Positions 6,045-18,853 of a stretch of 64,000 nt of DNA are shown in pieces; positions within the stretch are counted from its first letter, which is position 1, and every line of letters begins with the position of its first letter. A model generated the notes under the pieces. The model saw only the letters and a list, made by a program, of their open reading frames with translations, did no database searches and was not told the DNA's origin. The position numbers and the translations under genes are program-made. Source of the DNA: Gemmatimonadota bacterium (GTDB lineage Bacteria > Gemmatimonadota > Gemmatimonadetes > Gemmatimonadales > GWC2-71-9); assembly GCA_040388535.1 (NCBI GenBank), contig JAZKBR010000004.1, positions 124,001-188,000 on the forward strand, read 5' to 3'.

Positions 6045-7234
6045 TGGCCCGCCTCCTGCGCGATCGGAATCTCCGCCGTGTGCGGCGCCCAGAACGCAAC
6101 CCGACGGATGCGTCGCCGGACCACGAGTTCGACCACCACTCTCCAGCCGTCGATTTCCATGGCCTCGCCGGTGCGAGGCACACGGCCCAGCGCCGCGAGA
6201 ATCAATCCGCCGACGGTAGCGACATCCTCTCGCTCGAAGTCGTGTTCGAGTTCAGCTTCCAGATCGGCGAGCGGGATCCCGCCCTCGACGACCCAGTGGC
6301 CATCGGGTAGCTGCTGAACCGGCTTCACCTCGTCGACATCGTGCTCGTCCTGGATTTCGCCGACGATCTGCTCAAGGATGTCCTCAAGCGTGACCAGCCC
6401 GGCGGTGCCACCGAACTCGTCGACGACGACGGCGAGATGCCCGGGTCCGCGCTGGAAGTCGCGCAGTTGCCGGTCGAGCGTCTTGGCTGTCGGGACGAAC
6501 GAGGCCGGGCGAATCAGCGTCTGCCACTGATCGGTTGGCCGTGTTGCCGCGTAGAGCCGCGGCAGGACGTCCTTCGCGTATATCACCCCGATCACGGCGT
6601 CCGGGTGTCCGTCGAGCACCAGGAGTCGCGCGTGTTCGCTCCGCCGGAGCGTCGCGACCACCTGCGCCTCGGTCTCGTCGACCTGCACCGCGATGATGTC
6701 GAGTCGAGGCGTCATCACCTCGGCCACTTGCATCTCTGCCAGCGAGAAGACCCCGAGGGCCATCTCCTGCGGCGAGTGCCCGTCGGGCCGGGCGGTGACG
6801 CGGGAGGGATCAACCCGACCGCCGTCAAATCGCGTCGCCATCCAGAGCAGCGGCGCGAAGATGGGTCGGGACGCCAGCGCGAGCTGGCGAGCATACGGAA
6901 CAATTTCAGGCGCCAGTGTCGCCAGCAGTCGCGGCGCCAGATCGCCGACGGTCCAGACGAGCACGGTGACGAGCAGCACGCGGATCAGTGCGAGAGCCGG
7001 CGGATACGCCCACCAGCCGACCGCGGTGCCCGCAATCGCGGCCGCGGCCGTCATCGAGGCAAGATGGATGACGTGCAGCACGCGTTCGGGAGGGAGTTCG
7101 TCTGCGCTGGGGTCGCGAGCGAGTGCCCGCGCACCGAGTTCGGTATCACCTTCGCCGGCGAGCGCCACGAGGCCGGCCCAGAGCATCATCAGGCCGGCAA
7201 TCGCAGGCCAGAGTGCCTGGAGCAGCGCCGTCAC
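6041..7234 (-). CDS. CNNM/CorC (HlyC) family protein, upstream paralog
   Basis: About 397 residues from GTG 7234, chosen because it makes a GTGA overlap with the ybeY stop, as many neighbours do; a start at 7270 would overlap ybeY by 40 bases. The DUF21 region is divergent, with hydrophobic segments near residues 1-25, 50-75 and 80-105. The CBS pair (VMTPRLDIIAVQVDETEAQVV and FQRGPGHLAVVVDEFGGTAG) and the CorC_HlyC tail are clear. It resembles the downstream gene along its whole length, so the two are probably an ancient tandem duplication that may work as a heteromer. A role in Mg2+/Co2+ efflux is inferred from family and from the adjacent mgtE. Confidence 0.9.
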   Translation of the reverse strand: MTALLQALWPAIAGLMMLWAGLVALAGEGDTELGARALARDPSADELPPERVLHVIHLASMTAAAAIAGTAVGWWAYPPALALIRVLLVTVLVWTVGDLAPRLLATLAPEIVPYARQLALASRPIFAPLLWMATRFDGGRVDPSRVTARPDGHSPQEMALGVFSLAEMQVAEVMTPRLDIIAVQVDETEAQVVATLRRSEHARLLVLDGHPDAVIGVIYAKDVLPRLYAATRPTDQWQTLIRPASFVPTAKTLDRQLRDFQRGPGHLAVVVDEFGGTAGLVTLEDILEQIVGEIQDEHDVDEVKPVQQLPDGHWVVEGGIPLADLEAELEHDFEREDVATVGGLILAALGRVPRTGEAMEIDGWRVVVELVVRRRIRRVAFWAPHTAEIPIAQEAGQ

Positions 7235-7662
7235 GTCAGCAGCCCGACGTAGTGTTCCTGCTTCTGCCACATCGGTGACCGGGTCCGCTCTTCCCCCTCG
7301 GGATGATCGAACCCGAGGACGTGCAAGGTGCCGTGCACGACCAGTCGCACCAGCTCTTCGCGCACCCGAATGCCGCGACTGTGTGCTTCACGAGCCGCGA
7401 CCGAGGGACAGATATAGAGATCACCGGTGAGAGAACCGTCGGGCAAAGGCAGCGCAAACGAGATGACGTCGGTAGGCCAGTCGTGGTCCTTGTACTCCGC
7501 GTTGAGTGCCCGCATCCGTCGGGGCCCAAGGAAGGTGACCACGAATGCGGCGTCGCGACGCTCGCCCTCGAGCACCCGCGCAACCGCCTCACGAACGACG
7601 CGCGCCGGCAGCTTCCCTGCGGTGCCACCCACCACCACCTCGGCGTGCGCGGGGCGACTCAT
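7231..7662 (-). CDS. ybeY: rRNA maturation endoribonuclease YbeY
   Basis: 143 residues from ATG 7662, whose A is shared with the phoH stop (TGATG); a TTG at 7665 is an alternative. The zinc motif HGTLHVLGFDHPEGE sits near residue 112, giving the three His ligands of the UPF0054 family, and the preceding segment LNAEYKDHDWPTDVISFALP is also typical. YbeY is a metal-dependent RNase needed for 16S rRNA 3' maturation and 70S quality control. The phoH-ybeY order followed by a CorC gene is a widely conserved arrangement, so both context and motif support the call. Confidence 0.96.
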   Translation of the reverse strand: MSRPAHAEVVVGGTAGKLPARVVREAVARVLEGERRDAAFVVTFLGPRRMRALNAEYKDHDWPTDVISFALPLPDGSLTGDLYICPSVAAREAHSRGIRVREELVRLVVHGTLHVLGFDHPEGEERTRSPMWQKQEHYVGLLT

Positions 7663-8618
7663 CAACCCGCCTGATCCTCCGCGTACGCGCGGATGATGTC
7701 ACGCACCAGGCGATGGCGCACGACGTCCTCATCGGTAAGGTAGTGAAAGCCGATTCCTTCGATCCCGGGAAGGACACGTTCGATCTGCACCAGGCCGCTG
7801 TCTTCCCGCCGTGGCAAATCGATCTGCGTCTTGTCGCCGGTCACTACCACTTTGCTGTTCACGCCAAGACGGGTCAGGAACATCTTCATCTGGGCGATGG
7901 TGGCGTTCTGCGCCTCATCGAGGATGATGAATGCGTCCGCGAGCGTCCGGCCGCGCATGTAGGCCAGCGGTGCGATCTCGATGGTGCGAGTCTCGAGGGC
8001 CTTCTGCACCTTTTCGTGCGGCATCATGTCTTCGAGCGCATCATAGAGCGGACGCAGATACGGATCCACCTTCTGCTGCAGGTCGCCGGGAAGGAAACCG
8101 AGCGACTCGCCCGCTTCGACGGCGGGACGCGCGAGGACGATACGCTTGACCCGCTTCCGTGCCAGCGCTTCAACGGCCTTGGCCACTGCGAGATAGGTCT
8201 TGCCGGTGCCGGCCGGCCCGATGCCGATCACGATGTCGTGATTGTTGATGACGTTGAGGTACTCGCGCTGGCCAGCGGTTTTCGCAACGATCGCGCGACG
8301 CATCCCCGGAATGATCACCTTGAGCCCATCACCGGCCGTGGCGACTTCGGCCACGTGACCGTCGCTGGCGAGGCGATAGACATCTTCGGGCTCGATCGGC
8401 TGCCCCGCGCGCGCGAGATCGATGAAGCCCTGCACAACGGGAGTGGCGCGTTCGATCTGCGCGAGGGAACCGATCAGAGTGATGGCATCGCCACGCTGGG
8501 AGATCCGCACACCGATGGCACGCTGGATCTCGGCGAAGTTGGCTTCGTTGACGCCGGCAAGGAGAAGTGGATCCGCCCCTTCGGCATTCAGTGTGTGGCG
8601 GATGTCCTCACTATGCAT
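7662..8618 (-). CDS. phoH: PhoH-family ATPase (YbeZ-like)
   Basis: 318 residues: an N-terminal KH-like segment (about 10-85, with IGVRISQRGDAITLIGSLA) and a P-loop ATPase core with GIGPAGTGKTYLAVAKAVEAL near residue 140 and the Walker B IILDEAQNAT near 225. The segment VVTGDKTQIDLPRREDSGL matches sensor/motif III of the family. PhoH proteins are predicted RNA-linked ATPases or helicases that work with YbeY; here ybeY follows immediately. The start ATG at 8618 overlaps the last 8 bases of aspS. The phosphate-starvation name comes from E. coli and need not apply here. Confidence 0.95.
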   Translation of the reverse strand: MHSEDIRHTLNAEGADPLLLAGVNEANFAEIQRAIGVRISQRGDAITLIGSLAQIERATPVVQGFIDLARAGQPIEPEDVYRLASDGHVAEVATAGDGLKVIIPGMRRAIVAKTAGQREYLNVINNHDIVIGIGPAGTGKTYLAVAKAVEALARKRVKRIVLARPAVEAGESLGFLPGDLQQKVDPYLRPLYDALEDMMPHEKVQKALETRTIEIAPLAYMRGRTLADAFIILDEAQNATIAQMKMFLTRLGVNSKVVVTGDKTQIDLPRREDSGLVQIERVLPGIEGIGFHYLTDEDVVRHRLVRDIIRAYAEDQAG

Positions 8619-10392
8619 TCGGTGTCCCCACGGTGGTATGCAGATGCAGCGCGGCGAGATCCTTTGCTGCGACAGTCACCGGTGCGCCTTCGAAGAGTGC
8701 GCGCGCCGCCGCGGTCTTGGGAAACGCAATCACGTCACGAAGCGATGGCGCCCCGGCGAGCAGCATCGCGATCCGATCGAAGCCCAGCGCAAACCCGCCG
8801 TGCGGCGGTGCCCCTGACGCCAGCGCGTTAAGCAGGAACCCGAAACGGCGCTGTTGCTCCTCGGCCGGGATGCCGAGGAAGCGGAACACCGTCCCCTGCA
8901 GGACGGGATCGGTGATCCGGATCGAGCCGCTGCCGAGTTCCGTGCCGTTGTAGACCGCATCGTAGTGCAGCGCCCGGCATCGCTGTGGTTCCGATTCGAG
9001 ATACTGCAGGTCTTCTGGATGCGGAGACGTAAACGGGTGGTGGGTAAACACCCAGCTGTCGGTGGCTGGGTCATGCTCGAAGAGCGGGAAATCGACGACC
9101 CAGGCGAACGCGTGCTTCAGCGACGGCATGACGCCGGGTTGGCGAGCCAGCGCGGTGCGCACTCCGTGAAGGGCCGGGTTGGTCACAACATCCTTCCCCA
9201 CGACAGCAACGAGCAGATCGCCAGCATTCGCATCGATCGCAGCGAGCGCCGCGGCGCCGAGTGCCTTCACCCCCTGCCCTTCCCAGCCACCCTCGGCACG
9301 TTTGGCCCAGATCAATCCGCCAGCCCCGGCGCCTTTGGCCACCTCTCCCAGCTGATCAAGCTCCTTGCGACTGAGGCTCCCGAGTCCGGGAGCGACAATG
9401 CCGCGGAGGCGACCGCCAGCAGCAATTCCGTCGCGAACAAACGGGGCCGCATCGTCGCCAGCGGCTGCGCTGAGGTCGCGAATCTCGAAGCCGAATCGCA
9501 GATCGGGCTTGTCAATGCCGAAACGCTCCATCGCGTCACGGTGCGTCAGGCGCTGGAATGGAATTGAGACTTGCTCGCCGGCTTCAGCCCAGAGCTCGAG
9601 CAGCACGCGTTCGATGACCGGGAGGATGTCCTCCTGTCCAACGAAGGAGGCTTCGAGGTCGATCTGCGTGAACTCGGGCTGCCGATCGGCACGGAGGTCT
9701 TCGTCACGGAAACAACGGGCGATCTGGAAGTAGCGATCGAAGCCCGCCACCATCAGCAACTGCTTGTAGATCTGGGGCGACTGGGGCAGCGCGTAGAACT
9801 CGCCCGGATGTACCCGTGATGGTACCAGGTAGTCGCGGGCGCCTTCGGGAGTGGGCTTGGTGAGAATCGGCGTTTCGATCTCGAGGAAGCCGAGGTCGCT
9901 CAGGGTGCGCCGCGCACGCTGGAGCAGGCGGTGCCGCATGATGATGTTGGCCTGCAGTTCGGGGCGTCGGAGATCAAGGACGCGATGCTCGAGCCGCAGC
10001 TCTTCGGAGGCGAGCTCCTCGCCCTCGCGTCGCGCAACTTGAATCGCCGGAGTCACGGCGGGCCCGACCACACGGATATCGCGAACCTGCACTTCGATTT
10101 CCCGCGACGTCATGCCGGCATCGCGCGCCGACTCGTGACGCAGCGCCACCACGCCATCCACAAGCACCACGGTCTCGGCACCGAGGGTCGCCGCACGGGC
10201 GAGCACCTCGGGCGACGTCCACGAGGGGTCGCAGGAGAGCTGCACCAGCCCGTCCCGGTCTCGCAGGTCGAGGAAGACGATCCCGCCGAGGTCCCTGCGG
10301 CGGTGGATCCAGCCACCCAGACGGACGGTAGCGCCAAGCTCGGCGCGGGTGAGGGAACCAGCGCGATGGCTACGGAGTGATGTGCTGTGCAT
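8611..10392 (-). CDS. aspS: aspartyl-tRNA synthetase
   Basis: 593 residues, the bacterial-type class IIb enzyme with anticodon-binding OB fold (about 20-115; GWIHRRRDLGGIVFLDLRDR), class II catalytic core and inserted GAD domain (about 290-410). Motif 2-like FRDEDLRADRQPEFTQID and motif 3 GFALGFDRIAMLLAG are visible. It charges tRNA-Asp. No GatCAB amidotransferase genes are in the window, so whether it also charges tRNA-Asn cannot be judged here. It heads the aspS-phoH-ybeY-CorC-CorC-mgtE run and is divergent from rlmN across a gap of about 90 bases. Confidence 0.98.
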   Translation of the reverse strand: MHSTSLRSHRAGSLTRAELGATVRLGGWIHRRRDLGGIVFLDLRDRDGLVQLSCDPSWTSPEVLARAATLGAETVVLVDGVVALRHESARDAGMTSREIEVQVRDIRVVGPAVTPAIQVARREGEELASEELRLEHRVLDLRRPELQANIIMRHRLLQRARRTLSDLGFLEIETPILTKPTPEGARDYLVPSRVHPGEFYALPQSPQIYKQLLMVAGFDRYFQIARCFRDEDLRADRQPEFTQIDLEASFVGQEDILPVIERVLLELWAEAGEQVSIPFQRLTHRDAMERFGIDKPDLRFGFEIRDLSAAAGDDAAPFVRDGIAAGGRLRGIVAPGLGSLSRKELDQLGEVAKGAGAGGLIWAKRAEGGWEGQGVKALGAAALAAIDANAGDLLVAVVGKDVVTNPALHGVRTALARQPGVMPSLKHAFAWVVDFPLFEHDPATDSWVFTHHPFTSPHPEDLQYLESEPQRCRALHYDAVYNGTELGSGSIRITDPVLQGTVFRFLGIPAEEQQRRFGFLLNALASGAPPHGGFALGFDRIAMLLAGAPSLRDVIAFPKTAAARALFEGAPVTVAAKDLAALHLHTTVGTPNA

Positions 10393-10486
10393 GGTCCGAA
10401 ACTAACGCGCCCGGGAATGGGGCGAAAGGAAAGCTCCGACTCAGGTGACTCGCCGCAAGTGGGCCAACGACTTAGGTTTCCGCGAT

Positions 10487-11551
10487 ATGCCGACGCCGCT
10501 GACCCTGCTCGATCTCGCCCCCGCTGACGCTGCCGAACGGCTCCGCGCGTGGGTCGCCTCCGAAGGTCTCCCTGGCTACCGGGCGGGGCAGTTGCTGCGC
10601 CGACTCTGGGTCGCCCCGATCGGCAGCTGGGGGGAGGCCACGGAACTCCCCAAGGCGTTGCGGGACCGGCTCGATGAGGCCTTCCCGCTCCCGCGACTCA
10701 TTGCCGACGTCATCCAGCAGTCGCAAGATGGGACGCGGAAGTACCTCTGGACCCTCCAGGACGGCGAAAAGGTCGAGTCGGTGTTGATCCCCTCGGCGGG
10801 TCGCCGGACGCTCTGCATCTCGTCGCAGGCGGGGTGCGCGCTTGGGTGCGTCTTCTGCGCCACGGGGCTGATGGGATTTCGCCGCAACCTGACCGCCTGG
10901 GAGATCGCCTGCCAGGTTCGGGAAATCGTGCTGGCCACGCCCGATGACAAACCCACCAACGTCGTCTTCATGGGGATGGGCGAACCGCTACTCAACTGGC
11001 CCGCCGTCGATTCAACATTGTCGATTCTCAATCACCCCGATGGGTTCGGCATCGGCGCGCGTCACATCACCGTCTCCACCGTGGGAATCGTGCCGGGGAT
11101 GAAGGCGCTCGCAGCTCGGCCGGAACAGTTCCGGCTCGCGATCTCACTGCATTCGCCGAACCCGGCGGATCGTCAGGCGCTGATGCCGATCGAGAAGAAG
11201 TACCACCTGAAGGAAGTCCTTGACGTTGCGAAGACCTTCGCGAAGCGGATCACCTTCGAGTACGTGATGATCGCGGGACGCAATGATCGCGATGAAGATG
11301 CCGCGGTGCTCGCGTCACTCGCGCGGAAGCTCGGCGCGCACGTGAACCTGCTGCCGTTGCATCCGGGTGGTAATCCCGGCTTGGTGCCCACGGCGGTGCC
11401 CCGCATCAAAGAGTTCCGTGAATACCTCACCGACTGCGGTATCGAGGCCGTGGTTCGACGGTCACGCGGGCTCGACATCGACGCGGCGTGCGGGCAGCTG
11501 CGGGTGCAGATGGAGAAGCGGCGCCGGGCGGATGGGGTGGCTACCGGGTAA
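10487..11551 (+). CDS. rlmN: 23S rRNA (adenine-2503-C2)-methyltransferase RlmN
   Basis: 354 residues from ATG 10487, giving the usual family opening MPTPLTLLDLAP. A GTG at 10445 preceded by AAAGGAAAG would add 14 residues and cannot be excluded. It is a radical-SAM enzyme: the cluster motif CALGCVFCATG (CxxxCxxC), GMGEPLLNW and the C-terminal CGQLR region with the second catalytic cysteine are all present. RlmN methylates A2503 of 23S rRNA and A37 of some tRNAs. Transcribed alone, divergent from aspS. Confidence 0.97.
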   Translation: MPTPLTLLDLAPADAAERLRAWVASEGLPGYRAGQLLRRLWVAPIGSWGEATELPKALRDRLDEAFPLPRLIADVIQQSQDGTRKYLWTLQDGEKVESVLIPSAGRRTLCISSQAGCALGCVFCATGLMGFRRNLTAWEIACQVREIVLATPDDKPTNVVFMGMGEPLLNWPAVDSTLSILNHPDGFGIGARHITVSTVGIVPGMKALAARPEQFRLAISLHSPNPADRQALMPIEKKYHLKEVLDVAKTFAKRITFEYVMIAGRNDRDEDAAVLASLARKLGAHVNLLPLHPGGNPGLVPTAVPRIKEFREYLTDCGIEAVVRRSRGLDIDAACGQLRVQMEKRRRADGVATG

Positions 11552-11563
11552 GGCCTGTTCTGG

Positions 11564-11603
11564 GACAAGCTCACTTGTCCTTACGACAAGTACGCTTTAC
11601 ATT
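11564..11603 (+). promoter_or_regulatory. promoter with three alternating GACAAG/CTTGTC half-sites
   Basis: GACAAG (11564-11569), CTTGTC (11574-11579) and GACAAG (11585-11590) form two overlapping inverted repeats with 4- and 5-base centres. The middle half-site overlaps a -35-like TTGTCC (11575-11580). A 17-base spacer leads to TACATT (11598-11603), 25 bases before the ATG of the membrane-protein gene. The layout suggests autorepression by the XRE protein encoded two genes down. Confidence 0.55.
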
Positions 11604-11628
11604 GCCTCATCCCCTTTGCGGAGCGGCA

Positions 11629-12090
11629 ATGGAAGTCCCGACAACGGAAGACATCAAGGCAGATGCGAAACGGGCATTCCGGTGGAGCACCCTGCTTCCG
11701 TCAACTCTGTGGGTCCTTGCCACCTTTCAGGCCATTGCGAGGCTGAAACACCCTGAGCTGGTGGGCACGGGCCGACTCTTCTGGGCGCTCCTCCCGCTCC
11801 CGTTGATGGTCTGGGCGTTCTGGGCCTGGGAGAAGGCGGAGAAACGAAACAGCGAATTCGAGCGGGTCGTCAATCTCCAAGCTACCACGTACGCCTACCG
11901 TCTCACCGTTTTCTGGTTGTTCGGTGTGGTGCTCCTCAACGCCGCCGTCGGGTTTCCGATCGAGGTGTGGACACCGATTCCCGGCCTGCGAGACACGATT
12001 GGATGGACGGAGCTCATTATGCTCCCACCCCTCTTTTTCTCGTTTATCGGCTACATGGTGGTACATCGCAGGGTCTTTCCGAAGAAATGA
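11629..12090 (+). CDS. small four-helix membrane protein, function unknown
   Basis: 153 residues from ATG 11629; the open frame extends upstream into rlmN, but the promoter lies between. I do not recognise a named family. Four hydrophobic segments are visible at about residues 20-38, 49-67, 90-108 and 127-145, with a charged loop EKAEKRNSEFERV between the second and third and a basic C-terminus (HRRVFPKK). The next gene, an XRE regulator, starts within its stop codon (ATGA). Pairs of a small membrane protein and a 60-70 residue XRE regulator are common in bacteria and usually form autoregulated two-gene units; the physiological role is unknown. Confidence 0.8.
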   Translation: MEVPTTEDIKADAKRAFRWSTLLPSTLWVLATFQAIARLKHPELVGTGRLFWALLPLPLMVWAFWAWEKAEKRNSEFERVVNLQATTYAYRLTVFWLFGVVLLNAAVGFPIEVWTPIPGLRDTIGWTELIMLPPLFFSFIGYMVVHRRVFPKK

Positions 12091-12281
12091 ACAACCACGT
12101 CAAGGCGTTGCGCACCGCGCACGGCTGGACCCAGGCCGACCTCGCCGAGCGGCTCGACGTCTCCCGGCAGACGATCTATGCCATCGAGACTGAACGCTTC
12201 GACCCGTCGCTGCCGTTGGCCTTCGCCATAGCGCGGCTCTTCGCGAAGCCGATCGAGGAGATATTCTTCCCGGCGAAGTAA
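12087..12281 (+). CDS. small XRE-family HTH regulator
   Basis: 64 residues, essentially one helix-turn-helix domain: LRTAHGWTQADLAERLDVSR at about 8-27 holds the HTH, then QTIYAIETERFDPSLPLAF and the tail FAKPIEEIFF. This is the compact YgzD-like type in which the second half forms the dimer core. It is translationally coupled to the upstream membrane-protein gene. The likely target is the repeated GACAAG/CTTGTC operator at 11564-11590. Whether the membrane protein controls the regulator is not known. Confidence 0.92.
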   Translation: MNNHVKALRTAHGWTQADLAERLDVSRQTIYAIETERFDPSLPLAFAIARLFAKPIEEIFFPAK

Positions 12282-12296
12282 CCGGCTTCTGCCTAC

Positions 12297-12716
12297 GTGA
12301 GGACGCCTGTGGGACCTTCCGCATTCAGCCCTGCCCTGCTCGCCGCCGTCGCTCTCGGAAGCGCCATCGGTGGCGTCGCCCGGTACGTGATGACCTTCCT
12401 GGTCCAGCCGCGAGACGTGGCCTTTCCGTTGGGCACTCTCGCCGTGAATATCCTCGGGTGCTTCCTCATCGGCGCCATTGCGCAGTACTCCCTCGCACCT
12501 GGCCGCCTCTCTCCCGAACTGCGCGTGTTACTGATGTCAGGCTTCTGCGGCGGCTTCACCACCTTCTCGACTTTTTCGTTCGAGAGCGTGGAATTGATCC
12601 AGGCCGGTGCGTGGTCACGGGCGCTTCTCTACACGTTCATCTCCGTCACCGTCGGCCTCGCCGCCGTCTCTGCCGGCGCGCTCACGGTGCGTGCCGCGAC
12701 CGGCGCGGCCGCCTGA
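12297..12716 (+). CDS. crcB: fluoride exporter CrcB/Fluc
   Basis: 139 residues with four hydrophobic segments and the Fluc signatures GGVARY near residue 25, GTLAVNILGCFLIG near 46-59 and SGFCGGFTTFSTFSFE near 80-95. This protein forms dual-topology dimeric F- channels that lower cytoplasmic fluoride. A single gene, so it probably acts as a homodimer. GTG 12297 is used; GTG 12309 is also possible. It lies 15 bases after the XRE gene. I looked for a fluoride riboswitch upstream and saw none; the gap is too short. Confidence 0.95.
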   Translation: MRTPVGPSAFSPALLAAVALGSAIGGVARYVMTFLVQPRDVAFPLGTLAVNILGCFLIGAIAQYSLAPGRLSPELRVLLMSGFCGGFTTFSTFSFESVELIQAGAWSRALLYTFISVTVGLAAVSAGALTVRAATGAAA

Positions 12717-12736
12717 GCGCAGATGGCATTGCCCCA

Positions 12737-13720
12737 CTAGCGCAGCTTCACCCACGCAGCGATGTCGGTAATCACCGATGGATCAACATGCCCTGGTACG
12801 GCATAGTCGTTCGGTGACGGTGGCCCTTTTCCAGCGATGAAGAGGTGGCTCAGGGCCTCGTAACGTCCCACCGTCGTGTTATCACGCGGGCCGAGGATCC
12901 GGAGGTAGTCGGCGAGTTGGTCCGGCGTCACCTGATAATCACGCATCCCCTGCAGAATCAGGAGCGGCACCTTCACATCCCGCATCGCGACGGCCGGATC
13001 ATACCCGTTGAGATCGAGGAAATATTTCGCTGGCGCCCCGAGGATCATCTGCAGATTCGCCGAGTCTGCGGGCACCAGCGCGCGAATGCGCGCAATACGG
13101 GGCGCCAGCATCTGCTGCTGTGCCTTCACCGCCTTGAGGGTGACGGAATCTCCGGTCGAGATCGAGGCGATGTAAGCCAGCTGCCGCTCAACCTGATCAG
13201 CCAGTGTCGCACGAGTGGCCCCGGCGAGCAGGACGATCCCCGCCAGTTTGCCGTCTGCCTTCGCGACCCGCGGCGCAAGCATCCCGCCAAGCGAGTGGCC
13301 GATCATGACAGTGCGGCTCGGGTTCACTTCCGGCTGAGCACGGAGCACCGCCAGCGCGCTCACCGCATCCTCCACCGTCTCATCCCAGACTGTGAACGCC
13401 TTCCCGGCAAACCAGAAGGGCGAGACTTTCGATCGCTTGTCGTAGCGCAGCACGGCGACGCCCTGTTGCGCGAGCCCCCAGGCAATGTCCCGATACGGCT
13501 TGTCGGGTCCGATTGTCATGTCGCGATCTCCGGCGCCAGACCCGTGCACGATGATCACGGCCGGGAACGGGCCCTTTCCGGCCGGAATCGATAGCGTGCC
13601 GGGCAACGGTACTGGACCGGGAATCGTCACGGCGCGTTCGACCACACCGGTGGGCGGTTCCTGGGCTTCGATTCGTCCAGCGATCACCAGCACCAGCAGT
13701 GCTGGAAGTAAGCGACTCAT
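12737..13720 (-). CDS. exported alpha/beta hydrolase
   Basis: 327 residues from ATG 13720, preceded by GGAG at 6 bases spacing. Residues 1-20 (MSRLLPALLVLVIAGRIEAQ) look like a cleavable signal peptide. The fold is an alpha/beta hydrolase: oxyanion-region HGSGAGDRD at 59-67, nucleophile elbow GHSLGG at 141-146 (Ser143), a late Asp in LILQGMRDYQVTP, and His in EALSHLF. It resembles proteins annotated as dienelactone hydrolase or S9-like acyl hydrolase; the substrate is unknown. It lies 37 bases downstream of the dehydrogenase on the same strand and has its own good ribosome site. Confidence 0.85.
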   Translation of the reverse strand: MSRLLPALLVLVIAGRIEAQEPPTGVVERAVTIPGPVPLPGTLSIPAGKGPFPAVIIVHGSGAGDRDMTIGPDKPYRDIAWGLAQQGVAVLRYDKRSKVSPFWFAGKAFTVWDETVEDAVSALAVLRAQPEVNPSRTVMIGHSLGGMLAPRVAKADGKLAGIVLLAGATRATLADQVERQLAYIASISTGDSVTLKAVKAQQQMLAPRIARIRALVPADSANLQMILGAPAKYFLDLNGYDPAVAMRDVKVPLLILQGMRDYQVTPDQLADYLRILGPRDNTTVGRYEALSHLFIAGKGPPSPNDYAVPGHVDPSVITDIAAWVKLR

Positions 13721-13757
13721 ACTGCACTCCTTCAGAGAAGAAAGATCGGCGCAACCA

Positions 13758-14735
13758 TCAGGTGCCAACCCGATTCGGAATCGGACGACCGTCGAAACAG
13801 GCGGCGAGGTTTTCCAGAGCAAGGTACCCCATCGCTTCCCGAGTCTCGCGCGTGGCGGAACCGAGATGCGGCAGCAACACGACCTGCTCCATGCCCAGAT
13901 AGCGACGATCCACCTGTGGCTCGCCGCGGTAGACATCGAGTCCCGCACCGGCCAGATGCCCGGAGAGCAGCGACGCCACCAGCGCGTCGTCGTCGATGAT
14001 ATTCCCACGAGCAGTATTGATGAGGAAGGCGCCGGGTTGCATCAGCGCGAGGCGAGTGCTGTTCATCAAGCCACGCGTCTCCGGCGTGCTCGGGCAATGC
14101 AGCGACACGATGTCGCTACTGCCAAGAAGCGACTCCAGCGTGGCGCATTGTTCGGCGCCGACCGCCGCCAGCTGCCCGTCATCGAGTCGCGTGCGGTTGT
14201 AGCAGAGCACCCGCATCCCGAAACCGAAGTGTGCCCGGCGGGCGACGGCACTACCAATTCGCCCCATCCCGATCAACCCGAGCGTCTTCCCCGTCACCTG
14301 GCGCCCGAGCAAGTGAGTCGGTGCAAGACCGAGCCAGCGGCCGCCCCGGACCTCGCGCTCCCCTTCTCCAGCACGACGCAGTGTCATCAGGATCAGCGTC
14401 ATTGCGAGATCTGCAGTACAATCCGTGAGCACCCCTGGCGTGTTGGTCACGATCAGGTTGTGTGCATCTGCCGCTGCCAGGTCAATGTTGTCTACGCCGA
14501 CGCCGAAGTTTGCGATGATGCGAGCCCGCAAGGGATAGGCCGACAGCACTTCTGCGGTCATCCGATCGGTCACGGTGCAGAGCACCCCGTCGGCGCTGGC
14601 AAGGGCTCGCTGCAACGCCTCCGCCGACATTGGTCGATCGTCGCTCGAGAGCTCGGCGTCGAACCGCTCGCGCAGCGCCTGCTCCACCGCGACTGGCAAA
14701 CGCCTGGTGACCACGACACGCGGGCGCACACTCAT
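13758..14735 (-). CDS. D-2-hydroxyacid dehydrogenase (glycerate/glyoxylate reductase type)
   Basis: 325 residues from ATG 14735, with GGAG 6 bases upstream; an ATG at 14765 lacks such a site. The NAD(P)-binding motif GMGRIG is at 156-161, and the catalytic triad is Arg243 (NTARGN), Glu272 (GEPQ) and His290 (LPHLGSAT). NFGVGVDNID near 77-86 is the family substrate-side signature. The enzyme interconverts D-glycerate with hydroxypyruvate, or glycolate with glyoxylate. The divergent neighbour encodes glycerate 2-kinase, which supports the glycerate assignment by context. Confidence 0.9.
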   Translation of the reverse strand: MSVRPRVVVTRRLPVAVEQALRERFDAELSSDDRPMSAEALQRALASADGVLCTVTDRMTAEVLSAYPLRARIIANFGVGVDNIDLAAADAHNLIVTNTPGVLTDCTADLAMTLILMTLRRAGEGEREVRGGRWLGLAPTHLLGRQVTGKTLGLIGMGRIGSAVARRAHFGFGMRVLCYNRTRLDDGQLAAVGAEQCATLESLLGSSDIVSLHCPSTPETRGLMNSTRLALMQPGAFLINTARGNIIDDDALVASLLSGHLAGAGLDVYRGEPQVDRRYLGMEQVVLLPHLGSATRETREAMGYLALENLAACFDGRPIPNRVGT

Positions 14736-14808
14736 CCACAACTCCGGGCGGGAATGTTCCGGCATAGAATCAGGGGGTAATATTGGCGGTTCCGTCTCCG
14801 GAGTCACT

Positions 14809-16098
14809 CTGAGCGTACTCCAGCCGCATGCCAAGTTGCTGCACGACTGCTTTCTGGCAGGGGTCGCGGCGGTCCTTCCGGAACGCTGCCTGCCGCCGGC
14901 GCTGGCAGCAATCCCGGATGCCACCGGCCCCACCGTGCTCCTGGCGGTCGGGAAGGCAGCCCCAGGAATGGCGCTGGCGATCGCCGCCGCGCTCACGGAC
15001 CGCGGGACGCCGCCAGCGAACACCCTCGTGATCGGTCTCCAGCCCGGCCCGGGGCTCCTCACAGGCGACCATCCGGTTCCCGGCGCGCGATCGTCACGCG
15101 CGGCGGTCGCGATCGCGGAATGGGTTGCCGCACTGCCACCCGACGCCGAAGTGCACATCGCCATCTCCGGGGGCGCCACCTCCTTGATCGCCGCACCACT
15201 GCCAGGTCTCGCGGGAACCGACCTTCAGGATGTATTTGCCTTCCTGCTTCGATCGGGACTCGACGTGGCCACGGTCAACGCGGTCCGCAAGCGACTTACC
15301 CGCTGGGGTGCAGGTCGTCTTGCCGCTGCCGTCGCGCCACGAAAGACCTTTGCGTGGGTCATTTCCGACGTGCCAGGAGACGACCCGGCGACGATCGGGT
15401 CGGGCCCCTGCACCGGCGATCCGTGGCAGTCCACCTCACTGCGAAGTGCGCTCGAATCGACAGCTGTCTGGCAACACCTCGCACCGGTGGTCCGCGCCGC
15501 AATCGAGGTCGAGACACTGAAGCCGGGAGCGCGCGAACTCGGCGATGTGCAATTGCAGATCGTCGCGCGGAACCATGATGCCATCAGCGCAGCGGCGACC
15601 TTTGCGGCGAACCATGGCTGCGCGGTGCGACAGTCGTCGAGGCGCATCACGGGCGAGGCGCGCACTGCCGGCGAAGCCATCGTGAGCGACTTGATCACCG
15701 CACGCAGTAAGATGCGCGCTCCGCTCGAGGTGATCGTCCACGGCGGCGAGTCGGTCGTGACGTTGAGTGAGGTCTTCGGGGTCGGTGGCCGGAATCAGGA
15801 GCTCGCACTCGCCGCCGCTCGCTCGCTGGCGCAAGCGGATGTGGGTGAAGGAACTCTGCTGCTCGCGGCGGGCACCGACGGCAAAGACGGTTCCTCCAGT
15901 GCGGCCGGAGCAATCGTCGATGGCCTGACCTGGCGTGCCATCGCGTCGCGTGGACACGACCCCGACGCCTTGCTCGAGCGCCACCAGTCTGATCGCGCGT
16001 TTGAAGCGGTCGGAGCCCAACTCATTACCGGCCCCACCGGGACCAACGTGATGGATCTCGCGATCGGGCTCAACGTGGAACGGGTGCGCCTCGACTGA
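14809..16098 (+). CDS. glycerate 2-kinase (MOFRL/GckA family)
   Basis: About 429 residues. It has the N-terminal glycerate-kinase domain (LLAVGKAAPGMALAIAAAL, GDHPVPGARS, ISGGATSL) and the C-terminal MOFRL domain (HGGESVVTL, GGRNQELALAAA, AGTDGKDGSSSAAGAIVDG, TGPTGTNVMDL). It phosphorylates glycerate to 2-phosphoglycerate with ATP. The start is uncertain: no ATG or GTG lies between the divergent dehydrogenase start and the conserved region. CTG 14809 has GGAG 5 bases upstream and gives the family's normal N-terminal length; TTG 14836 is the nearest conventional start. It pairs functionally with the divergent D-2-hydroxyacid dehydrogenase. Confidence 0.92.
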   Translation: MSVLQPHAKLLHDCFLAGVAAVLPERCLPPALAAIPDATGPTVLLAVGKAAPGMALAIAAALTDRGTPPANTLVIGLQPGPGLLTGDHPVPGARSSRAAVAIAEWVAALPPDAEVHIAISGGATSLIAAPLPGLAGTDLQDVFAFLLRSGLDVATVNAVRKRLTRWGAGRLAAAVAPRKTFAWVISDVPGDDPATIGSGPCTGDPWQSTSLRSALESTAVWQHLAPVVRAAIEVETLKPGARELGDVQLQIVARNHDAISAAATFAANHGCAVRQSSRRITGEARTAGEAIVSDLITARSKMRAPLEVIVHGGESVVTLSEVFGVGGRNQELALAAARSLAQADVGEGTLLLAAGTDGKDGSSSAAGAIVDGLTWRAIASRGHDPDALLERHQSDRAFEAVGAQLITGPTGTNVMDLAIGLNVERVRLD

Positions 16099-16112
16099 TC
16101 GAGGCGCACCCG
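16081..16112 (+). terminator. perfect 14-bp hairpin around the glycerate kinase stop codon
   Basis: CGGGTGCGCCTCGA (16081-16094), loop CTGA (16095-16098) and TCGAGGCGCACCCG (16099-16112) form an uninterrupted stem. The stop codon TGA is in the loop. There is no T tract after it, so it is not a classical intrinsic terminator. It sits between converging genes and may end or stabilise either transcript. Confidence 0.6.
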
Positions 16113-16168
16113 AGGGAGGACGCGTCGGGTGCCGGCCCACATGCGGGGCGCGGCACTCTGGCCTGTTG

Positions 16169-16558
16169 CTACCGCAACAGACGCGCGGCCGAGACTTCGG
16201 CAATCGCCACGTCGGGCGACCGCTGCACGAACTCGAAGAGGCGCTGCTGGAAGTCGCTGCCATCTTCATCGGCGTGCACCATCAGCCTGGCTTCATCGAG
16301 CAGACTGGGAACCCGGGCATCGGCGTCGGGGGAATCTTCCAGCATCGCCTCATCCATGGCCACGAGCAGCGCCGTCAACGGCCGCAGCCAGGCGAACCAG
16401 GGATCGTGAATGGCAAGCTGGAGCACGTCGGCAGAACCGGGGACCCTGCCGTGCATCCGCTCGTATGCCATCCGCTCCGCGTCGAGCAGGTTGCGGTGCA
16501 GGTTCAGCATCGCCTCACGCACGGGGCCAAGTCGCAGCTGCAGATCGGATGATGTCAT
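16169..16558 (-). CDS. conserved small protein of unknown function
   Basis: 129 residues from ATG 16558, preceded by GGAG with 7 bases spacing; the longer frame to 16618 is less likely. I recognise no named domain. It looks all-helical and soluble, with RLGPVREAMLNLHRNLLDAE and ERMAYERMHGRVP followed by DPWFAWLRPLTALLVAMDE, then an acidic C-terminal half. The Trp/Pro-rich segment recurs, as I recall, in uncharacterised proteins of other phyla. It follows the LytR_C gene after 78 bases on the same strand and converges with glycerate kinase. Confidence 0.75.
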   Translation of the reverse strand: MTSSDLQLRLGPVREAMLNLHRNLLDAERMAYERMHGRVPGSADVLQLAIHDPWFAWLRPLTALLVAMDEAMLEDSPDADARVPSLLDEARLMVHADEDGSDFQQRLFEFVQRSPDVAIAEVSAARLLR

Positions 16559-16636
16559 ACCGGAACTCCTTCTGGGTGACGTCATGTCACTCGCAGCGTA
16601 AAACGTGCCATGCGTCAAAAAGGTTCCTGTCGCGGA

Positions 16637-17068
16637 CTAATACCCCTTGGGAACCCGGAACCGTCTCCCCAGAAGGACAGTAACGTCCACCATTCTGGAG
16701 CTATCCATCTGGCGGATCACCTCGGCATCCCCGAGGGCCTCGACGATCCGGCCGACCCCGGCCGTGTCATTTCGGCGGACCAGGACTTGGTTCCGGTCGC
16801 GACCGCGGTGGGCGGAATCGGCATTGCCGAGGTAGACCACATCAAGTCCGGCACGACGCAAGAGGAGCATCCCGGCCCGACCAGCGCCTATCACGCCCCC
16901 GGAGTTGAGCACCTCGACCTCGACCCGATGCGCCAGCGGTTCCCAAACACGAACCGGCTCCGGGCCAGCCGGCGGCGGCGCTCGCTTCAGGAGTCGCCCC
17001 GCGAGTAACACCACCACGATCAGCCCGACTGCCCCGCCCACCCACCAGCGTGCCGGGAGCCGGTTCAC
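16637..17068 (-). CDS. membrane-anchored LytR C-terminal domain protein
   Basis: 143 residues: a short cytoplasmic N-terminus, one hydrophobic segment at about 9-26 (VGGAVGLIVVVLLAGRLL), a proline-rich linker, then a LytR_C-type domain (RVEVEVLNSGGVIGAGRAGMLL ... AEVIRQMDSSRMVDVTVLLG). The domain occurs as the C-terminal extension of LytR-CpsA-Psr proteins and alone in envelope-linked proteins; its biochemical role is unknown. The GTG start overlaps the yqeK stop (GTGA). It is the last gene of the trp-pan run. Confidence 0.82.
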   Translation of the reverse strand: MNRLPARWWVGGAVGLIVVVLLAGRLLKRAPPPAGPEPVRVWEPLAHRVEVEVLNSGGVIGAGRAGMLLLRRAGLDVVYLGNADSAHRGRDRNQVLVRRNDTAGVGRIVEALGDAEVIRQMDSSRMVDVTVLLGRRFRVPKGY

Positions 17069-17631
17069 AGGACCGCCGCTCGGAAGGCGAGAGACTCCGG
17101 GGGCAGCGTCCAGCCCTGAGTGATGGCGTAGTCGAGCCGCCGACGGACGACTTCGCGAAGCACTTCATCGGGCTCCTCAGGGTAGAGCACCGCGAGGGCG
17201 GCACGGTCGGCACGGTCGAAGGTCCGACCGGGCTCGAGAAAGTCGGCACAGTAGAGTGCCCGGCCGATTCGCCCCCAACCCACCCAACCGACCGAGTGCC
17301 AGCGAACCGCACTCAACACATCGGCATCGCGTTCTCCTTCGAGCTCGGCGCGCGCGGCAGCAGCAGGTCCGTGACGTAGTTCGACAGGCCCCTCAACCGT
17401 CGGTGCCCAGCGTCGCATTTCGGCCTCGGGGGCATCCCGAAGCGCATCGTGAAGCCAGACCGCGCGAAGCCAGCGCGCGCGTTCCTCCGGCGCAAGGCGG
17501 AGCGCGGTGACCCAACTGCGCATCAGTTGCACGACGCGCTCGATGTGCTCGCGACGCGCAGGTGCAACGACGGCCCAGGACGGCAAGCCATCCTGGGCCG
17601 AGCGAGCAGGATCATCGTGCGCGGGGATCAA
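17065..17631 (-). CDS. yqeK: HD-domain hydrolase, YqeK-like
   Basis: 188 residues from TTG 17631, which makes a TTGA overlap with the panD stop. HD-family metal ligands are visible in order: REHIERVVQL (first His), AVWLHDALRD (HD pair), LRHGPAAAA, AVRWHSVGWVGWGR and YCADFLEPGR. The last two match YqeK, a symmetrical Ap4A hydrolase. Length and order match that family, but the sequence is divergent enough that the Ap4A substrate is inference. Confidence 0.8.
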   Translation of the reverse strand: MIPAHDDPARSAQDGLPSWAVVAPARREHIERVVQLMRSWVTALRLAPEERARWLRAVWLHDALRDAPEAEMRRWAPTVEGPVELRHGPAAAARAELEGERDADVLSAVRWHSVGWVGWGRIGRALYCADFLEPGRTFDRADRAALAVLYPEEPDEVLREVVRRRLDYAITQGWTLPPESLAFRAAVL

Positions 17632-17996
17632 GCGGGCCCGGGTGGTGGCGAGACGATCCGGTTCGACCCGTCGACGAAAACCACTGCCGGGCGAAACGCG
17701 GGTACGTCGGGCTCATCGATGTCACCGTAGGCAATCAGGATGACGAGGTCTCCAACCATGCCGAGGCGCGCCGCGGCACCGTTCAGCTGCACGACGCCGC
17801 TTCCGGCCGGACCGGGAATCACGTAGGTCGTGAAGCGCGCACCGTTGTTGACGTTGACCACCTGGATCTCTTCGTAGACCACCAGGTCGGCGGCCGCGAT
17901 CAGATCGGTATCGAGCGTCAGCGACCCCTCGTAATGGAGGTCCGCAGCAGTGATGGTCGCACGATGGATCTTGGACTTCATGAGGCGACGGCGCAT
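17628..17996 (-). CDS. panD: aspartate 1-decarboxylase
   Basis: 122 residues from ATG 17996 (GTG 18002 is an alternative making a GTGA overlap with panC). The self-processing site HYEGS places Gly24-Ser25 exactly as in the classical enzyme, and Ser25 becomes the pyruvoyl cofactor after cleavage. KSKIHRATITAADLHY and the C-terminal LNGAAARLG...GDLVILIAYG segment are typical. It makes beta-alanine from aspartate for the pantothenate synthetase encoded just upstream. It completes a contiguous panBCD set. Confidence 0.97.
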   Translation of the reverse strand: MRRRLMKSKIHRATITAADLHYEGSLTLDTDLIAAADLVVYEEIQVVNVNNGARFTTYVIPGPAGSGVVQLNGAAARLGMVGDLVILIAYGDIDEPDVPAFRPAVVFVDGSNRIVSPPPGPA

Positions 17997-17998
17997 GC

Positions 17999-18853
17999 TC
18001 ACGCGTTCGGCTCCTTGAGGATCACGTTGTCGATCAAGCGGGTGGTGCCGACCCGCGCTGCCACGGCGACGATTGTCCCCGGCTCAGCTCGCTCGACGGA
18101 GGCGAGCGAGTCAGGATCAGCGAGCGCAATATAGTCCGGCGTCACGCCGCGAGTCGCAGCAAAGATCTCGGCCGCGACCGTGTGCAAGACCTCGGCATCC
18201 CGCTCCCCGGCTCGCCAACGCACCTCGACCGCGTGCAACGCCCGCGATAGCGACAGGGCTTCGATCCGTGCCTCGGGGGTGAGGTAGACGTTGCGTGACG
18301 AGAGGGCGAGCCCATCCGGTTCGCGCACCGTCGGCAGCACCCGCAGCGTCAACGGCAGGTCGAGGTCGCGGACCATCTTGCGGATGAGGGTGACCTGCTC
18401 GATGTCCTTCTGTCCGAAGCCGGCGACATCGGGCTGGACGATGTTGAACAACTTGGCGACCACGGTGAGCACGCCATCGAAATGCCCCGGTCGATGGGCG
18501 CCTTCCCAGCGTGACGCCGTCGCGCCCGCGACCACACGAATTTCCGCCCCGGGCGGATACATCTCGTCAGCCGTCGGCACAAACAGCACCTCCACGCCGC
18601 GCGAGGCAGCCAGCCCCCGGTCGCGCTCGATGTTGCGCGGGTAGCGGGATAGATCCTCGTTCGGACCGAACTGCAGCGGATTGACGAAGATGCTCATCAC
18701 GACGAGATCACAGGCCGCGCGGATATCGTCCACGAGCGCCAGGTGACCGTCGTGCAGGAAGCCCATCGTCGGCACGAAGCCGATGCGACGGCCCTGGCTC
18801 CGCTCGCGCGCGAGTCGCGCCCGGAGTGCCGCAATGCTCGTGAATTCTTCCAT
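17999..18853 (-). CDS. panC: pantothenate synthetase
   Basis: 284 residues from ATG 18853; a TTG at 18862 would overlap the panB stop as TTGA. Nucleotidyltransferase-fold ligase joining pantoate and beta-alanine with ATP. Motifs: FVPTMGFLHDGHLALV (HxGH) near the N-terminus, SIFVNPLQFGPNEDLSRYPR, GFGQKDIEQVTLIRKMV, and the KMSKS-like LALSSRNVYL. Length is standard. It lies between panB and panD in one run. Confidence 0.97.
   Translation of the reverse strand: MEEFTSIAALRARLARERSQGRRIGFVPTMGFLHDGHLALVDDIRAACDLVVMSIFVNPLQFGPNEDLSRYPRNIERDRGLAASRGVEVLFVPTADEMYPPGAEIRVVAGATASRWEGAHRPGHFDGVLTVVAKLFNIVQPDVAGFGQKDIEQVTLIRKMVRDLDLPLTLRVLPTVREPDGLALSSRNVYLTPEARIEALSLSRALHAVEVRWRAGERDAEVLHTVAAEIFAATRGVTPDYIALADPDSLASVERAEPGTIVAVAARVGTTRLIDNVILKEPNA

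Follow-up and report, generated by a model that had tools for sequence, protein, structure and literature searches.

A predicted two-dyad operator precedes a membrane protein/XRE regulator gene pair in a Gemmatimonadota genome and in relatives from several phyla

Background

Several described systems bear on the gene pair considered here. In Enterococcus faecalis, CylR2, a small XRE protein of ~66 residues, is encoded beside the polytopic membrane protein CylR1; according to a review of the cytolysin (PMC3709268), CylR2 is a repressor on a promoter, CylR1 is needed to induce the CylR2-repressed operon and is thought to relay a signal, and the step from membrane to DNA is described as not understood. 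In Bacillus subtilis, the autorepressor SdpR and the membrane protein SdpI are encoded in one operon, and SdpI, which is also an immunity protein, sequesters SdpR, according to a review (PMC1626106). From Deinococcus radiodurans there is a solved structure of the protein DR_2454, and no study of DR_2454 or of its PDB entry 9K3W was found among the papers listed in searches of an open-licence library. The controller proteins of restriction-modification systems, e.g., C.AhdI and C.BclI, are small XRE-fold autoregulators that act at tandem dyads in their own promoter as an activate-then-repress switch.

The locus described here lies in a window of 64,000 nucleotides, i.e., the whole stretch of DNA that was analysed, from a Gemmatimonadota bacterium (GenBank assembly GCA_040388535.1). 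It resembles CylR1/CylR2 in that a small XRE protein of the same fold is encoded beside a polytopic membrane protein, the roles of promoter-bound repressor and of membrane relay both being predicted in this case. It differs in that the CylR1/CylR2 genes respond to a peptide and are divergent to the operon that they control, which is a separate one, whereas here the operator precedes the pair and no such operon is adjacent. With SdpR/SdpI it would share the single operon for autorepressor and membrane protein, in this instance as overlapping genes behind a predicted operator. SdpR is, however, an ArsR-type repressor, whereas the protein encoded here (P0002) is of the HTH_3 type, and the immunity function of SdpI contrasts with a locus for which no killing factor is known. 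As regards DR_2454, dyads like those of the window also stand ahead of a gene for a membrane protein at a related Deinococcus plasmid locus. The controller proteins differ from the present case, in which the putative -35 element lies inside the first dyad, and no restriction-modification gene was seen among the open reading frames of positions 7000-18000. The kind of mechanism predicted, XRE autorepression, is an ordinary one, and the membrane-paired module in which it is set is widespread. Searches of an open-licence library listed no paper on either the operator or the XRE/membrane protein pair.

The operator and promoter in the window

Read directly, the sequence contains four half-sites in the arrangement GACAAG-n4-CTTGTC-n5-GACAAG-n4-CTTTAC (11564-11600), which make up two inward dyads of 16 bp, each with a 4-bp spacer, placed 21 bp apart (Table 1). 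The initial annotation had reported the first three of these half-sites, all of which are present in exactly the places given and beyond chance expectation; its list was incomplete, lacking the fourth half-site, CTTTAC. In the window GACAAG-N3-6-CTTGTC was observed once against 0.01 expected, and CTTGTC-N3-6-GACAAG once against 0.04 expected, the hexamer GACAAG by itself not being rare (32 observed, 24.69 expected). The consensus drawn from relatives, GWMAAGN4CTTKWC, matches exactly two places in the 3.72-Mb genome, both at this locus and 21 bp apart; because the reversed control likewise gives two matches per strand, a lone dyad could have arisen by chance and the pair could not. With as many as 3 mismatches allowed, the genome has no second copy of the 37-bp array of four half-sites and no copy of its reversed control. 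Since no further exact dyad occurs anywhere in the 3.72 Mb, the idea of a larger regulon here was rejected.

Table 1. Positions in the window of the predicted operator, the putative promoter and the genes of the unit
Feature	Sequence or product	Position	Strand	Basis or remark
Operator dyad 1	GACAAG-ctca-CTTGTC	11564..11579		Sequence, kept in relatives; predicted operator
Half-site 1	GACAAG	11564..11569		Sequence
Half-site 2	CTTGTC	11574..11579		Sequence
Operator dyad 2	GACAAG-tacg-CTTTAC	11585..11600		Sequence, kept in relatives; predicted operator
Half-site 3	GACAAG	11585..11590		Sequence
Half-site 4	CTTTAC	11595..11600		Sequence
Putative -35	TTGTCC	11575..11580	+	Sequence; inside dyad 1
Putative -10	TACATT	11598..11603	+	Sequence; 17 bp past -35, overlaps dyad 2
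Possible ribosome-binding site	GGAG	11620..11623	+	Inferred from sequence; precedes ATG at 11629
Membrane-protein gene	153 aa	11629..12090	+	Four main helices predicted
XRE (HTH_3) regulator gene	64 aa	12087..12281	+	Start overlaps membrane gene by ATGA
CrcB-like gene		12297..12716	+	15 bp downstream of XRE gene

The spacing of the putative -35 and -10 elements fits a promoter, the hexamers themselves are weak (4/6 consensus matches each), and a promoter consensus scan of 11400-12400 reported no promoter. The proposal that the middle half-site overlaps the -35 element gains support from the relatives, in which one dyad ends in CTTGACA at 88 of 111 dyad-bearing loci (a set that includes the best 80 of 290). 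The XRE regulator gene is indeed the second gene of the unit, as had also been proposed.

Conservation of the dyad upstream of XRE homologues

Comparison with relatives, from which emerge the exact geometry of the predicted operator, the XRE subfamily with which it is linked and the place that it takes up on the putative promoter, covered 48 XRE loci (the window included) from 47 of 396 related genomes, together with 80 further loci that are the best 80 of 290 confirmed in a scan of one genome per species; removing two duplicates (L113, L119) from these 128 left 126 loci. Because sampling was uneven and the loci are related, with many from Massilia, Rhodanobacter and Dyella, the counts are not independent of one another.

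In the 1,000 bp upstream of the XRE genes at the 126 loci (best 80 of 290 included), there are 161 copies of the inward dyad GWMAAG-N4-CTTKWC, spread over 96 loci; versions with a spacer of 0-3 or 5-13 are absent, and those with a spacer of 14 or 15 are found in two loci each. The 123.8 kb downstream of the same genes, likewise counting the best 80 of 290, contain no perfect dyad. Extending the search to 1.1 kb in this set, the best 80 of 290 among it, gives 165 perfect dyads in 99 of the 125 loci with upstream sequence and none downstream. When one mismatch at most is allowed in the 12 half-site positions, the 1,100 bp upstream hold 221 sites in 111 loci as compared to 3 sites in 3 loci downstream, and dyad pairs 15-50 bp apart are seen at 95 loci upstream and at none downstream (both counts with the best 80 of 290).

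Presence of the dyad varies with the similarity of the XRE protein. In the same set (best 80 of 290 included), a dyad was found at 95 of 104 loci with at least 60% XRE identity (perfect in 87), at all 9 loci with 55-60% identity and at 7 of 13 below 55%, the other 6 lacking one. The nine misses at 60% or above consist of two loci with little or no upstream DNA (L025, with 113 bp, and L045, with none), six with a perfect pair 1.3-2.1 kb upstream, and one (L120, 68% XRE identity) that has no dyad of at least 11/12 matches in 2.5 kb, just a degenerate array (20/24). Setting L025 and L045 aside leaves 102 evaluable loci in this identity class, of which 101 carry the dyad at no more than one mismatch and 93 carry it perfectly (best 80 of 290 included), which bears out the expectation that the half-sites would be conserved upstream of orthologous units. 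The comparison thus supports a predicted operator that lies over the promoter of the unit and is conserved with it.

Judging from record titles, dyads are present in Gemmatimonadetes, Pseudomonadota, Acidobacteria (L122), Anaerolineae and Ktedonobacterales (L134, L108) and Opitutae (L131), as well as in three plasmid loci, from Azospirillum, Deinococcus and Eleftheria. Relatives of the XRE protein appear in 532 plasmid records and 18 phage records, from which three plasmid loci were examined. On the Deinococcus taeanensis plasmid (L175, 908-2713), dyads 42 bp apart are followed by genes for the membrane protein, an epimerase and the XRE protein, so that a third gene splits the pair. The fixed 4-bp spacer at 161 perfect sites (in the set with the best 80 of 290) predicts a binding site for this XRE subfamily in several phyla, relatives of DR_2454 included.

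Spacing of the dyads

Architecture was counted over the 111 loci that have a dyad with 11 or 12 matches, a set that includes the best 80 of 290. Pairs 21 bp apart account for 19 of these, 18 of which, with the window among them, come from the 396-genome set; at 51 the two dyads of a pair are 39-48 bp apart, 11 loci have three dyads spaced 18+21 or 18+22, 14 show other spacings and 16 have a single dyad. The common element is the dyad over the -35, and in the 21-bp type the second dyad covers the -10. With two turns between them, a pair of dimers would lie on the same side of the helix, which permits cooperativity and does not show it, and since spacings differ between clades, with a single dyad at 16 of the 111 loci (best 80 of 290 included), two turns are not a general rule.

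These architectures bear on the model put forward in the initial annotation, in which three half-sites form two overlapping dyads that share the central half-site and dimers on the left and right dyads exclude each other. The sequence CTTGTC-n5-GACAAG is a true inverted repeat at this locus, and an outward pair with a 5-bp gap recurs at 24 of the 126 loci (best 80 of 290 included). The fourth half-site, however, closes a second inward dyad, and for that reason two tandem dyads replace the overlapping ones. The constant element among relatives is the inward dyad with its 4-bp spacer, and at the 51 of 111 loci (again with the best 80 of 290) whose second dyad lies 39-48 bp away no outward pair forms at all. 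From sequence, the outward 5-bp pair is the gap between two tandem dyads. A shared central half-site is very improbable on this evidence, and mutually exclusive binding finds no support; the graded switch that had been envisaged might arise by way of two dimers on two complete dyads.

Tandem dyads at the promoter of a small XRE-fold protein also call to mind the controller proteins, for which a dimer on the first dyad would activate and a dimer on the second would repress. C.AhdI and C.BclI are in fact among the fold matches of the XRE protein, and the weak promoter hexamers also speak for such a switch. Yet 16 of the 111 loci (best 80 of 290 included) have one dyad, and, because dyad 1 contains the putative -35, a dimer bound there should block RNA polymerase; we regard an activator-then-repressor as improbable.

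Arrays without an adjacent XRE gene

The full array was found, at no more than one mismatch, in 22 of the 396 related genomes, and its reversed control in none of the 396. In 16 of the 22, the window included, a homologous XRE gene lies within ~1.5 kb, one of them more divergent (L143, whose XRE protein has 54% identity to the consensus query). The other six, all from genus g83, have no XRE gene within ~1.5 kb of the array at the places considered (L151-L156); three of these six genomes hold five further places. In each of the six a long open frame begins with a related HTH domain, which in the one such protein scanned is joined to a PBP_like domain (8.2e-41). Every one of these HTH domains has a dyad 91-163 bp upstream, with 12/12 matches in three genomes and 11/12 in three.

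One could suppose from the g83 arrays that some other regulator acts at the dyads and that the XRE gene is a mere neighbour, all the more so as binding of the XRE protein to the dyads is itself a prediction. Against this, the dyad tracks the XRE gene in several phyla, even in operons that differ in their remaining genes, and in the six g83 genomes such dyads also precede the gene for a related HTH domain, which leaves the supposition with very little probability. Because the g83 HTH genes have dyads upstream and the arrays there lack a nearby XRE gene, the half-site seems to go with the HTH subfamily (core VSRQT, VSRQS or VSRQA) rather than with the membrane partner. The g83 HTH protein is possibly a ligand-sensing relative with a larger regulon. 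Within g83 (L151-L156, L167-L172; genomes G292, G311, G317, G319, G343, G381) the arrays occupy up to four places per genome.

The XRE protein and its membrane partner

The XRE protein belongs to the XRE/HTH_3 (Cro/C1-type) family, with an HTH_3 match of 2.1e-15 and 56.9 bits against a Pfam cut-off of 23, and is the single match to itself in this genome at E <= 0.01. Its predicted model (pLDDT 95.0) has DR_2454 and CylR2 as nearest folds. DR_2454 (PDB 9k3w) is the closest solved structure (phmmer 3e-20, Foldseek TM 0.95), and CylR2 (PDB 1utx, 2xiu) is matched at 2.7e-9 by phmmer and at E 2.2e-5 by Foldseek.

For the membrane protein no Pfam or NCBIfam model reached its cut-off and PADLOC gave no match, and none of seven relatives reached a Pfam cut-off. 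Its predicted model of four main helices (pLDDT 85.2) yielded no PDB match by Foldseek at E <= 0.001 (18 at E <= 10). A relationship to NrsF was rejected, the protein (P0001) scoring 18.3 bits against a cut-off of 26.8 and NrsF being absent from the matches of the seven relatives. Five columns are nearly invariant among 44 aligned members (R69, D75, E76, R79 and G101 in window numbering). The window protein keeps E76 and R79 and is a diverged member, since it has K69, S75 and V101 at the other three and is 30% identical to the protein of a same-genus relative. At one Rhodanobacter locus (L061, 1850-2464) the membrane protein is longer, at 205 aa, with a C-terminal hydrophobic extension not seen in the 15 members aligned with it. 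An automatic criterion, which asked for two or more hydrophobic helices, placed a membrane gene directly before the XRE gene at 100 of 126 loci, at 70 of them overlapping it by 4 bases, and gave none at the other 26 (best 80 of 290 included).

An overlapping two-gene operon with a small XRE gene, present in one of nine other genomes of the genus, might also be taken for a toxin-antitoxin pair in which the membrane protein is the toxin and the XRE protein both antitoxin and autorepressor. There are weak matches to antitoxin models, e.g., a Y4mF-type model at 2.4e-10 and 40.2 bits against a cut-off of 71.65; a type II pair was nevertheless rejected, since among the matches listed no antitoxin model of the HipB, HigA or Y4mF type reaches its cut-off. 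The absence of any NCBIfam or PADLOC match for the membrane protein, PADLOC matches of the XRE protein that are to HTH stretches, the 26 of 126 loci without a membrane gene by the automatic criterion (best 80 of 290 included) and the XRE gene that follows another gene on the Deinococcus plasmid likewise count against a toxin-antitoxin pair, which is decidedly improbable.

Proposed mechanism

The XRE protein is, very probably, an autorepressor whose predicted operator of two dyads covers its own promoter. The course of events that we infer, from binding and repression by the XRE protein, perhaps with cooperativity, to what the membrane protein does and what it senses, would be as follows. The 64-residue repressor would bind as dimers to the two tandem 16-bp dyads, for which the family consensus is TGTMAAG-N4-CTTKACA and the window offers GACAAG half-sites. 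Dimers lying over the -35 and -10 would block RNA polymerase and so keep transcription of the repressor and its partner low (negative autoregulation). Two dimers 21 bp apart, i.e., two helical turns on one face of the DNA, might bind cooperatively, so that the promoter would respond steeply to the level of repressor. A change at the membrane would be sensed by the membrane protein, which would relieve repression by holding or altering the XRE protein, whereupon expression of the pair and of downstream genes would rise. The part given to the membrane protein is suggested by the gene pairing, after the model proposed for CylR1/CylR2 and the one reported for SdpI/SdpR, and we put its chances somewhat below even. 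More tentative is the extension to a phylum-spanning family of switches, in which a four-helix membrane protein of no Pfam family would control an XRE autorepressor directly, holding it at the membrane, the dyad operator would be fixed, the dyad spacing (21, 18+21/22 or 39-48 bp) would set the steepness in each lineage, and the outputs downstream (hydrolases, ABC exporters) would be interchangeable. The module offers a clean system in which to ask whether small XRE/membrane protein pairs are true membrane-to-DNA switches.

Gene neighbourhood

The gene upstream of the operator ends at 11551 and, like the downstream CrcB-like gene, is on the same strand as the pair; from the appearance of its protein we take it to be rlmN. 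The CrcB-like gene is possibly co-transcribed with the pair and would belong to an older rlmN-crcB gene order rather than to the module. As a module partner crcB was rejected because it directly follows rlmN in four of seven other same-genus loci with an rlmN match (L159, L160, L162, L165), where the crcB match begins 17-114 bp after the rlmN match; the remaining three have no crcB match within the sequence stretch examined. A riboswitch before crcB was rejected as well, there being no Rfam match at gathering score within 11300-13000. Since rlmN and crcB adjoin in four of the seven loci and, of nine other genomes of the genus, one (G007) has the XRE gene, the pair with its operator (window 11551-12297) looks like a small self-contained insertion between rlmN and crcB. 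The surroundings of the XRE gene in G007 (L008, L119) gave no match to rlmN, crcB or a hydrolase.

In the window, a hydrolase gene (12737-14008) lies near the pair in the opposite orientation, on the minus strand. At 49 of 123 loci (best 80 of 290 included) the XRE gene is followed, no more than ~0.5 kb on, by the start of a gene related to one of three alpha/beta hydrolases; these hydrolases, in loci (L014-L130) from Rhodanobacter, Dyella, Massilia and others, are of different subfamilies. At 8 of the 123 loci, all from related genomes (L013, L015, L017, L019, L021, L023, L027 and L035; best 80 of 290 among the 123), the XRE gene is followed by an ABC-transporter ATPase gene.
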